A stretch of 64,000 bases of DNA, from the NCBI RefSeq assembly GCF_015291665.1, contig NZ_CP030048.1:4464001-4528000 (forward strand). The letters are read 5' to 3'. Position 1 is the stretch's first letter. Every line of letters starts with the position of its first letter. Shown one piece after another: positions 20,828 through 64,000 of the stretch. Both the position numbers and the translations under genes were made by a program. The notes under the pieces are model-generated. The model worked only from the letters and a program-made list of their open reading frames with translations, ran no database searches and was not told where the DNA came from. This stretch comes from Bradyrhizobium sp. CCBAU 53338. GTDB taxonomy: Bacteria > Pseudomonadota > Alphaproteobacteria > Rhizobiales > Xanthobacteraceae.

Positions 20828-20865
20828 GCGCAGAACCAGGGGGATGAAGAGGAGATACGAACTTG

Positions 20866-21039
20866 GTGACGCCCAGCAAATGGTACGATCCGATCTCGGA
20901 ACGCTGGATCGCACCGCGCGAACTCCACGCCGCAGCTCCCTGCCCCCATGCCAGCGAGAACCACGTGCTCGAGATGCAGAGGTCCATCGAGATCCAGCGC
21001 ATCTGGCGCTTGCTGGTCGATTGCTGCGCAGGCAAGTGA
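20866..21039 (+). CDS. Small hypothetical protein (57 residues)
   Basis: A GTG-initiated frame giving MTPSKWYDPISERWIAPREL and then a helical, His/Cys-containing segment ending CCAGK. A TTG three bases upstream (20863) has the better spacing (eight bases) from GAGGAG at 20849-20854 and may be the real start. The good ribosome-binding site and protein-like composition support a gene. No family recognised. Confidence 0.5.
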   Translation: MTPSKWYDPISERWIAPRELHAAAPCPHASENHVLEMQRSIEIQRIWRLLVDCCAGK

Positions 21040-21257
21040 TGCTCCTGCGCGTGCGTGACGGCGGTGACGCGCGCCGTCCGGCGCATTCTTGTTCTCCTGC
21101 ATGACCGATCCGTCATCCCCAGCAAGGCCCGCCACCATCGCGATCCGCCACCTCGCGATCATCGTCGGCTGCGCCTGCCCGCTCCCACCGCGATCTGCCT
21201 TGCCAGCGCATGTCAGGTCTTCATCCAGACCGGCGAGCAGAGATAAGGGCAGCCGGG

Positions 21258-21838
21258 CAAAACACCAAAACACCGTCAACCCCTTTGCGCAAAAATATTC
21301 TCCTTTCCAGAATTTCGGATTTATGGCATAAGCACCCCCATCCCGGCCCTTGCCAAAGGGGCGCTTCGCGATCGTCACGAGATGCGGGCCGGGTTGCGGT
21401 GGACGCGGTAGCGCCGGCGCGATTGCGCGATGACAGGGCGGGCAACCGTGAGACGTCACGCAACGCGGCACGACACGGCGCGGTCACAGCGGGTTCGTCG
21501 GCGGTCCGGGTGAGCACACGCAAGCCCCGAACGATCAGGCGAAACCGTCCGCGGACGGAGAAGTCGTGTGGTCCTGGCGCCCGGAGCCTGTGCGTCAAGC
21601 CTTGCGGTGATGTGGCGGCCCGACCGGGTGCGCGCGTCAGCCATCTGCAAAGCGACGGGGGCAATAGTGCATCGCTCCCCGAGGAGAGCGCGAAGGACAC
21701 CGTTAAAACCATCCGCGCAGGGAAGGCCGGGCGTTCGGCCAACCTGTGGTCCACCCCGTGTGCATTTCCTGGAGCGCACGGACTTGCGGGTGCCGCCGGC
21801 GCCCGGCCTTCCCTGCGCCCTCTGGCTTTCATAGGGCG
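21258..21838. repeat. Non-coding structured element, probably a dispersed Bradyrhizobium repeat
   Basis: No frame here looks like protein. The sequence has several inverted repeats: CCCGGCCC at 21342-21349 with GGGCCGGG at 21386-21393; the self-complementary CCGTCCGCGGACGG near 21545-21558; and a perfect 19-bp long-range pair described separately. Landmarks such as TTTGCGCAAAAATATTC near 21283, GTGTGGTCCTGGCGCCCGG near 21566 and GCGCAGGGAAGGCCGG near 21715 belong to a sequence that I remember recurring between genes in Bradyrhizobium and relatives; I could not search for it. It lies between two plus-strand genes in a 966-base gap. Transcription direction and function are unknown. Confidence 0.65.
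21715..21818. ncRNA. Large stem-loop of the structured element (candidate RNA)
   Basis: GCGCAGGGAAGGCCGGGCG (21715-21733) is the exact reverse complement of 21800-21818, giving a perfect 19-bp stem. Inside the 66-base loop, CCGTGTGC (21756-21763) pairs with GCGCACGG (21774-21781) with one G-U pair. A stem this long without mismatch in non-coding DNA suggests selection at RNA or cruciform level. No T-run follows, so it is not a standard terminator. Confidence 0.5.
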
Positions 21839-22005
21839 ATGAACGGCAGCAAGGCCCGGACAAACCTGTCGCGGGAACGCGAACCTGTGCGCCTCTCCGA
21901 TCGCGAGACGTGGCGGGCTCGTTCCGGCCATCCGGCCAAAGTGCCGCACCGCTTTTCGGCCGTGCATCTAGCTGGTAGATTGGCGCCATTATTTGGGGAA
22001 TTTTG

Positions 22006-23349
22006 ATGCGCGCGAGGATTTTCAATCGCGTCCTGATGCTGGCGGCGTTCGTCGTCGCCACGCTCAACGTCGCGCAGCCGGCGGCGGCCGAGAAGCGCAT
22101 TGCGCTGGTGGTTGGCAACTCCGCTTACAAGAACATCACGCCGCTCGACAATCCCGCCAAGGACGCCAGCCTGATGGCGCAGACGCTCGGCTCGCTCGGC
22201 TTCGTACTGGTCGGCGGCGGCGCACAGCTCGATCTCGACAAGGCCGCGATGGACATTGCGGTACAAAGCTTCGGCCGGCAGGTGCAGGGCGCCGACGTCG
22301 CACTGTTCTATTATGCCGGTCACGGTGTGCAGGTGGCGGGCTCGAACTATCTGGTACCTGTCGGCGCCAATCCAACGCGCGAAGCCGACGTCGATTTCCA
22401 GATGACCGACGTCAATCTCGTGCTGCGCCAAATGCAGGGTTCGGGCACGCGGCTCAACCTCGTCATCCTCGATGCCTGCCGCAACAACCCATTCGGTTCG
22501 CGCGGCTTGCGCTCCTCCGACGGCGGCCTCGCGCAGATGCGTGCGCCCGAGGGCACGCTGATTTCCTACGCGACGCAACCGGGCAACGTCGCGCAGGATG
22601 GCAGCGACGGCCACAGCCCCTACACCAAGGCGCTCGCGGCGACGATCCGCACCGCGGGCCTCGACGTCTTCCAGACCTTCAACCAGGTCGGCCTCGCCGT
22701 GAAGCGCGCCACCTCGGGCGCACAGCAACCATGGGTGTCGTCCTCGCCGATCGACGGCACATTCTACTTCGTACCCCCGACGCAAGCCGCGCCGCCGCAG
22801 GTCGCGGCGATGCAGCCCGATCCGCTGCCGGCGGATCGCCTGCGTGCCGATCCTGACCGAGTGCCGCTGCGCGATGCCGCGCTGCTCAGCGAATTGAGCG
22901 AGCGGCTCTACGAGCTCAATTTCGATCCTGATACGCCCGACGGGCTCACGCGCGCGATCACGAAGCTTCAGCAACGGATTTCCATGGCGCCAACGGGTGA
23001 AGCGACCGAGGGCCTGCTGCTGCGGATGCGCAAGATGGAGGACCTCAAGCCCTGGGGCTCGATCGTCTACGGCCCCGACAGCAGCAAATGGGGCATCTCG
23101 TGGAACCATGCCTCACGGCGCGCGGCGGTCGCGGATGCGCGCGGCAATTGCGGGGGCGCCAAATGCCCGATCGAACTCTCCTTCTACGGCAGAAGCTGCG
23201 GCGCGTTCGCAATCTCGGACAAATCCTGGTCGCTGGTCCAGCGCGACAGCGTGGAGCGCGCGAAGGATGCCGCGCTTGACGATTGCGGCAAGGCCGGCAA
23301 AGCTTGCCGCATTATTGGAGCCGTCTGTGCCGACGGCTCTGGTCGTTGA
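22006..23349 (+). CDS. Secreted caspase-family (C14) protein with C-terminal DUF4189
   Basis: A 447-residue exported protein. Signal peptide to about residue 28 (ends QPAAA); a caspase-like p20 domain follows with RIALVVGNSAY at 31-41, catalytic His 106 in FYYAGHGVQ and catalytic Cys 158 in VILDACRNNPF, so the dyad is intact. A Pro/Ala linker and helical stretch (about 255-340) lead to a cysteine-rich DUF4189 domain (about 350-447, with NCGGAKCP and DDCGKAGKAC). Such proteins are widespread in Bradyrhizobium as orthocaspase-like peptidases of unknown target, probably cleaving after Arg/Lys. The ATG at 22006 follows GGGGA. Confidence 0.85.
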   Translation: MRARIFNRVLMLAAFVVATLNVAQPAAAEKRIALVVGNSAYKNITPLDNPAKDASLMAQTLGSLGFVLVGGGAQLDLDKAAMDIAVQSFGRQVQGADVALFYYAGHGVQVAGSNYLVPVGANPTREADVDFQMTDVNLVLRQMQGSGTRLNLVILDACRNNPFGSRGLRSSDGGLAQMRAPEGTLISYATQPGNVAQDGSDGHSPYTKALAATIRTAGLDVFQTFNQVGLAVKRATSGAQQPWVSSSPIDGTFYFVPPTQAAPPQVAAMQPDPLPADRLRADPDRVPLRDAALLSELSERLYELNFDPDTPDGLTRAITKLQQRISMAPTGEATEGLLLRMRKMEDLKPWGSIVYGPDSSKWGISWNHASRRAAVADARGNCGGAKCPIELSFYGRSCGAFAISDKSWSLVQRDSVERAKDAALDDCGKAGKACRIIGAVCADGSGR

Positions 23350-63636: not shown

Positions 63637-63739
63637 GGCGGGAGCGTTTGGCAGGGAAAATGGGCTGGATCAAGCCTCATTTGGTGATTGCGGAGCCTCT
63701 CGGCCAGCCCCATATCGGCCTTGGCCATGCTGGCCTTGG

Positions 63740-63792
63740 GGGAGGACGACCTCCCTGCTCATCAGCCTATTGCCTAGCGGGGACGGCCCTGC
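63740..63792 (+). promoter_or_regulatory. Guanidine-II (mini-ykkC) riboswitch
   Basis: Two hairpins with ACGR tetraloops, the hallmark of the guanidine-II class. P1: GGGAGG-ACGA-CCTCCC at 63740-63755. P2: GCGGGG-ACGG-CCCTGC at 63777-63792 with one G-U pair. The linker is 21 bases. The unit ends 18 bases before the ATG of a SugE/Gdx-type transporter, the commonest partner of this riboswitch. Binding of guanidinium is expected to free the ribosome-binding site (GGGAGGG at 63800-63806). Confidence 0.9.
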
Positions 63793-63810: not shown

Positions 63811-64000
63811 ATGGCCTGGAGCATCCTGTTCGTCGCCGGTCTTCTCGAGATCACCTGGGCGATCGGCCTGAAATATACCGAGGGATTTACCAGGCTTGTT
63901 CCATCCGCGATCACGCTCGCGGCCATGGCGGGCAGCGTGGTCCTGCTCGGACTCGCGCTCAAGTCCCTGCCCGTCGGAACCGCCTATGCGGTCTGGACCG
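63811..64000 (+). CDS. gdx: SMR-family guanidinium exporter (Gdx/SugE type), cut by window end
   Basis: The first 63 residues of a roughly 105-residue four-helix transporter are present. The SMR signature is clear: [20 protein letters not shown] with the essential Glu 13, then Lys-Tyr, and later [12 protein letters not shown] with GTAYAVW of helix 2/3. The Gdx subgroup exports guanidinium by proton exchange and works as an antiparallel homodimer; the riboswitch directly upstream supports guanidinium over quaternary ammonium as substrate. A strong ribosome-binding site lies between riboswitch and ATG. Confidence 0.88.

Follow-up and report, generated by a model that had tools for sequence, protein, structure and literature searches.

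Structured non-coding elements, probably RNA genes, form a dispersed family under concerted evolution in Bradyrhizobium

To our knowledge few large structured RNAs have been described in bacteria. OLE, GOLLD and ROOL are present in few copies and are partly borne on phages or plasmids. Ribosomal RNA operons represent dispersed RNA genes which are homogenised by gene conversion, at far fewer loci than the family described here. The elaborate folds of the large bacterial RNAs OLE, GOLLD and ROOL are outlined in PMC12286853. Transcribed intergenic palindromic repeats, Br-REP1 and Br-REP2, were reported from Bradyrhizobium and Rhodopseudomonas by Hahn et al. 2016 (PMC5082802), where they are given as motifs of 20-40 nt and Br-REP2 is stated to belong to a larger undescribed repeat. 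The same account includes BjsR5, BjsR6 and BjsR7, small RNAs (sRNAs) that occur in B. japonicum USDA 110 as 2-4 imperfect copies, RpoD promoters being present for some (PMC5082802).

We analysed a 64,000 nucleotide stretch of the Bradyrhizobium sp. CCBAU 53338 genome (the window), in which positions 21252-21893 are occupied by an element that can be set beside these systems. It resembles OLE, GOLLD and ROOL in being large and structured but is without an Rfam match, chromosomal and present at dozens of loci. Dispersal and homogenisation are shared with ribosomal RNA operons, although the function is unrelated and the element family is dispensable, its scarcity in some congeners indicating that the RNA is not essential across the genus. 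The Br-REP1 and Br-REP2 sequences given in PMC5082802 are unlike the element, and neither had a match in the window at ≤ 3 mismatches (the Br-REP2 query being a 20-nt part of the consensus). BjsR5-7 are, like the present family, multi-copy in Bradyrhizobium but with 2-4 copies rather than dozens; we set them apart by description, and they may be identical with part of the present family. Rfam release 15, searched with the whole window, returned a Guanidine-II riboswitch only, the element reaching the gathering score of no family. Relaxing the E-value brought up two weak matches of the window element to microRNA precursors, both well under the gathering score and accounted for by its perfect hairpin, and no match fell inside the element at six home-genome loci and five loci from other genera. 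The Guanidine-II riboswitch (RF01068, 34.9 bits) occupies 63738-63791 (+), and the ORF that begins immediately downstream, near 63811, looks by eye like an SMR-type transporter. The top-ranked results from the open-access PMC literature included nothing describing the present family, which is apparently undescribed: a large structured bacterial RNA, but one that is chromosomal, found at dozens of loci and under concerted evolution. We consider it probable that 21252-21893 is one of many structured non-coding RNA genes (~500-560 nt) with their own promoter regions, acting in trans and homogenised by gene conversion.

The whole conserved unit, comprising promoter region and RNA, was placed at ~21252-21893 (+) in the home genome's copy ('W') using nhmmer and alignment with its own paralogues and relatives; homology of the flanks to three relatives ends at 21233-21235 and restarts at 21943-21971. 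An initial annotation had delimited a non-coding block at 21258-21838, which is confirmed but slightly short. Among 91 full copies from five genomes 89 are 582-676 bp in length and two are 524-528 bp. The perfect 19-bp stem described in that block (21715-21733 with 21800-21818) is exact in the sequence and constitutes the longest perfect inverted repeat within 21258-21838, while in 60 dinucleotide shuffles of the block the longest such repeat was ≤ 12 bp (mean 9.1). An 8-bp pair at 21342-21349 and 21386-21393 (CCCGGCCC/GGGCCGGG) is likewise exact and forms part of a covarying helix, and the stem variant GGGAATG with CATTCCC cited in that annotation is present at locus L072. For the central region, described there as a self-complementary hairpin, the comparative model gives a multi-branched domain. 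Folding of the single sequence yields an unremarkable energy (z -1.0 on the + strand, -0.4 on the - strand), which was rejected as evidence, so that the case for structure rests on comparison.

Members of the family share a 5′ to 3′ layout of promoter region, helix P1, central domain, long hairpin and two short hairpins, all given here on the + strand of the window copy. Positions 21304-21332 hold a promoter-like pair read from the sequence and family comparison, TTTCCA-17-CATAAG, whose spacer contains GAATTTCGG; it is a poor instance of TTTACC-17-TATGTG, the form most frequent in the family. Downstream of it the comparative model places P1 and an inner helix at 21342-21393 (21342-21349/21386-21393 and 21361-21371/21375-21385), with double changes in 6 of the 8 bp of P1 and 97 % of its cells paired across a set of 77 sequences. 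The central multi-branched domain (21396-21716) is closed by the long-range helix 21396-21402/21710-21716, which pairs GCGGTGG with CCAYYGC (95 % of cells paired in the same set). Inside this domain are, among others, the helix pair ACGGC/GCCGT and TCGTG/CACGA with A-rich internal loops between, and a sub-domain at 21555-21703 closed by 21555-21559/21699-21703 and 21564-21569/21688-21693. The long hairpin (21717-21816; 95 % paired) includes the 19-bp stem together with apical helices 21741-21747/21786-21792 and 21751-21759/21774-21782. It is followed by a short hairpin at 21817-21837 (21817-21822/21832-21837; 89 % paired) and by the terminal hairpin at 21855-21875, CCCGGAC..GTCGCGGG in the window and CTCGGGCG..CGCCGCGAG in its family form (96 % paired, double changes at three bp). 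The window copy, with its weak -10 box, ranks 58 of 77 in the number of consensus pairs formed.

The 77 sequences are non-redundant, those ≥ 92 % alike having been dropped from 120, which in turn were drawn from 133 loci (with some places represented twice), the remaining loci being partial. For held-out tests 32 type C sequences were set against the 45 others, both halves being taken from one joint alignment. In the covariation null the inferred substitutions were re-placed along the tree, and in slid controls the 3′ partners were shifted by 1-3 columns. Structures predicted from two disjoint sets had 130 pairs in common, of 164 and 155. The type C structure paired 88 % of cells in the 45 held-out sequences compared to 36-46 % when slid, with 10 of its 164 pairs covarying at E < 0.05 compared to 0-2 in the slid controls. 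The reverse test, in which the structure from the 45 was applied to type C, gave 91 % of cells paired and 5 of 155 pairs at E < 0.05, and slid controls over both directions gave 34-46 %. Pairs with p < 0.01 numbered 19 and 15 in the two tests where 1.6 were expected, and the sub-domain pair 21564/21693 covaried significantly in both. Some significant pairs were poorly paired (two of the ten, at 47 % and 80 %, and one of the five, at 75 %); the significant pairs therefore include some that are not base pairs, and a covariation test of all pairs returned just 2 pairs at E < 0.05, both standard. RNAalifold applied to plain alignments identified double-sided changes with pairing kept at 5 of 29 pairs in the 3′ domain and 5 of 9 in the 5′ domain, and gave the same broad layout for three sequence types analysed separately.

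Copies from other genera retain much of this fold. Of 30 such loci 9 were too partial and 21 were full; three copies from G102 (L349, L361, L373) were dropped, leaving 18. The flanks of these three copies, filed under another genus, encode proteins 100 % identical to those of G021, so they are likely Bradyrhizobium contamination. The 18 copies were 73.6 % paired overall compared to 36-45 % when slid, with P1, the long-range helix and the terminal hairpin at 97-98 % (97 %, 98 % and 97 % respectively), core helices at 85-98 %, the long hairpin at 85 % and the short hairpin at 81 %. The apical helices of the long hairpin were just 37-43 % paired, and several inner and apical helices are not conserved in these 18 copies. 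At 13 pairs the majority state had changed on both sides, and four bp of the long hairpin show majority double changes between the two sets. Compensatory change, originally suggested for related sequences, is thus borne out by held-out covariation and by the double changes in other genera; the stems do covary. One conserved fold is supported by covariation beyond phylogeny when proposed pairs are tested, the signal being weak in the all-pairs version.

The suspected dispersal of the element was confirmed by 32 matching pieces on home contig C1, with none listed on C2 (query 21200-21960; 40 of 64 candidates scored). These pieces come from 20 copies, of which 16 are full-length and four incomplete or broken; the twentieth, L048, is a short relic. 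Copies were counted with R1, a covariance model for the 3′ domain, as listed rows of at least 70 bits. This gave 19 in the home genome, which therefore holds far more than a single copy, and, in four other complete genomes of the genus, 44 in G005, 21 in G008, 18 in G021 and 37 in G156; weaker rows that were inspected were mostly the same hairpin on the opposite strand. Six further congeners, picked partly for an apparent scarcity of matches, ranged from none in G192, one 56-bit match in G007, 1 row in G017 and 2 in G092 to 30 in G209 and 82 in G012, a draft with some rows at contig ends. Absence from G192 and G007 is uncertain, since both are drafts and the element appears to break draft assemblies. 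Several matches in G012, G062 and G112 lie at the extreme start or end of draft contigs.

A DNA query, scored on 13 candidates in most genomes, matched 23 of 24 congeners and none of the 16 genomes from other families of the order. R1 at E ≤ 1e-6 matched 76 of 148 genomes of the GTDB family, in 20 of 40 sampled genera including the home genus, a reach limited by the model having been built from that genus. One genome of genus g55 is contaminated, yet a second genome, G078, also matches. Searched in 297 genomes of the order, a P1-loop motif gave no exact matches beyond the home genus, just one-mismatch singletons and one pair; as it misses G062, which R1 matched, it says little about absence. 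Occurrence in Bradyrhizobium, as proposed in the initial annotation, is supported by record titles in a short-pattern scan that matched at least 120 stretches, the genus being named for 74 of the 80 loci listed. The other 6 are from metagenome bins, and all five of those tested contain the element or part of it; no USDA 110 record was among the 80 loci listed. A search with the L033 copy gave no match in 72,556 plasmid records or 50,697 phage records.

A tree of the 91 full copies from five genomes (copies taken: 20 of 37 from G156, 20 of 44 from G005, 20 of 21 from G008, and 18 plus one weak match from G021) revealed subfamilies which cross genomes and, within these, clusters from single genomes. 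Many loci are orthologous, with long flanks that align at ~80-92 %. We compared 28 pairs of loci between genomes for which both flanks could be aligned over 300 bp; as they draw on 39 distinct loci, the pairs are not all independent. Both copies were closer to an own-genome paralogue in 20 pairs, one copy in 3 and neither in 5. The copies had a median identity of 83 % with their orthologue and of 90 % with their best paralogue (the lower of the two values in each pair being taken), and the flanks one of 88 %. The family is therefore under concerted evolution, by gene conversion or by repeated replacement in place. At one locus, L129/L183, two genomes carry different subfamilies. A check of the copies for common boundaries found recurrent ends of the homogenised unit, the right end often being the terminal hairpin or GTGTCTGC and the left end often lying within or just before the promoter region, with some pairs extending into the flanks. 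Copying from the transcript alone was rejected, since the promoter region is often part of what is homogenised. Inspection by eye of the ends of 40 copies from two genomes (two copies being cut by contig ends) revealed neither a target duplication nor a fixed insertion site. L042 was considered as an autonomous version with an inner gene and rejected, its halves being ~2 kb apart with unrelated genes between. The home loci L044 and L045 have ~1.4 kb of upstream sequence that is 99.8 % identical beside copies of different subfamilies with 73 % identity; this is a recent duplication of the upstream region beside different elements.

The window locus is flanked by two genes that lie outside the element. 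Upstream is a decayed, 3′-truncated gene remnant (20862-21235, +) homologous to L083 and L084, in which the frame runs, by eye, beyond the point where the element region of the window copy begins. Directly downstream is a gene for a caspase-domain protein with DUF4189 (22003-23349, +; PF00656, PF13827). Of 60 genomes of the genus 31, the home genome among them, contain DNA resembling the caspase-domain gene. Comparison of 30 caspase-gene loci, including more distant relatives of the gene, identified the element upstream of 7 (home, G207, G005, G019, G001, G024 and G193) and a piece of it at a contig end in G191; it was not seen at the other 22 within the DNA examined. By eye, the upstream gene reads on in G014, G008 and G188 through the position occupied in the home genome by the element and the decayed truncated gene, and G008 keeps what appears by eye to be a decayed piece of the element's left end. 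We therefore take the locus to be probably an ancient one that has undergone losses and local rearrangement, and not the product of a clean, recent insertion event; orthologous loci that are without the element are not clean empty sites. A neighbouring gene conserved across genera was rejected, as matches were scattered only, one of them a porin by eye.

Promoter-like boxes were identified before P1 in 81 of the 91 copies from five genomes, with TTTACC in 56 and TATGTG in 32, and a CCGAAATTCGG-like dyad is present in 71 of the 91. Ten of the 18 copies from other genera have, by eye, a TTGAC box before P1, several with TATATT or TATAGT ~17 nt on, and the remaining copies are without a TTGAC box or cut short. 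In the window copy, which has CATAAG at -10, a strict consensus scan found no promoter and a scan for intrinsic terminators found none. A possible regulator-binding site, made up of a CCCGACGGGCAAA dyad and repeated CAAATCA-like boxes, precedes the promoter region at loci L385-L404 of G012. Within the proposed helices, G-U and A-C cells on the + strand numbered 1193 and 233 compared to 1381 and 439 when the 3′ letters were dealt at random, A-C being depleted more than G-U as expected if a + strand transcript is selected. For pairs whose commonest state is Watson-Crick the observed numbers were 682 and 224, a smaller ratio. Copies tend to be orientated with replication (42 of 56 in total; 29 of 37 in G156 and 13 of 19 in G000, the latter alone not significant), although orthologous loci make these counts not fully independent. 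The scoring of G000 and G156 assumed the origin at the contig start and used sampled GC skew to place the terminus at 4.2 and 3.69 Mb; coding strands sampled in G156 were about even by crude ORF calling.

These data bear on other explanations of the element. That it represents a protein-coding gene family or its pseudogenes is scarcely credible: ORFs of 210 and 248 amino acids do overlap the block in the window copy, and a stop column is common to up to 54 of 77 copies and an ATG column to 42, which we put down to sequence conservation. However, there is no ORF start or stop common to all copies, in keeping with the non-coding nature first proposed, sequence changes follow the helices, and a coding gene was rejected given that just 1 of 91 copies has a coding-like ORF inside. 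Selection had been suggested at the level of either RNA or a cruciform, and of the two RNA is favoured by the G-U/A-C asymmetry and the promoter-like boxes. An element acting purely as DNA, with dispersed palindromes serving as cruciforms or protein-binding sites in the manner of REP/BIME sequences and RNA irrelevant, would agree with the largely intergenic, palindromic copies and their replication-strand bias. We regard it as very improbable since it would not account for the stronger depletion of A-C mispairs on the + strand, for nested multi-branched helices spanning 320 bp, for promoter-like boxes just before P1 or for a length of ~600 bp.

It is also rather unlikely that the family is a non-autonomous mobile or homing element, SINE-like or resembling an ORF-less intron, in which the fold serves its own spread and a cellular function is secondary or absent. 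A copy number of 0 to ~80 among congeners is as expected of a proliferating element, and copies that cluster by genome inside shared subfamilies, recurrent unit ends, the truncated gene beside the window element and the differing subfamilies at L129/L183 could all be read in this way. However, many copies occupy orthologous loci in divergent species, the ends show by eye neither target duplication nor a fixed insertion site, the L033 copy matches no plasmid or phage record searched, and 90 of 91 copies are without a coding-like ORF inside. The high copy counts nonetheless keep a selfish reading alive. We suggest only tentatively that the family might be a new, self-maintaining and self-spreading class of large bacterial RNA, an intricate fold of ~550 nt expressed from as many as ~80 sites in the chromosome. 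Its copies would replace one another in situ, and it could be either an RNA machine needed at high dosage or a selfish RNA gene homing into its own alleles.

Under the favoured explanation, that of many trans-acting RNA genes, the RNA would extend from a 5′ end immediately before P1 (near 21340) to a 3′ end shortly past the terminal hairpin (near 21893). Its fold would comprise a 5′ hairpin, a central multi-branched domain with the long-range helix as its closing stem, a long hairpin and a pair of short hairpins towards the 3′ end. The RNA would work in trans as a structured RNA or ribonucleoprotein, for which the many loci may supply dosage, and the gene copies would persist at inherited loci, homogenised within each genome by gene conversion and subject to lineage-specific gain and loss. 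If true, the family would constitute a prominent and so far unannotated part of the genome in a major genus of nitrogen-fixing soil bacteria, and would offer a natural system in which to study gene conversion between dispersed bacterial loci.
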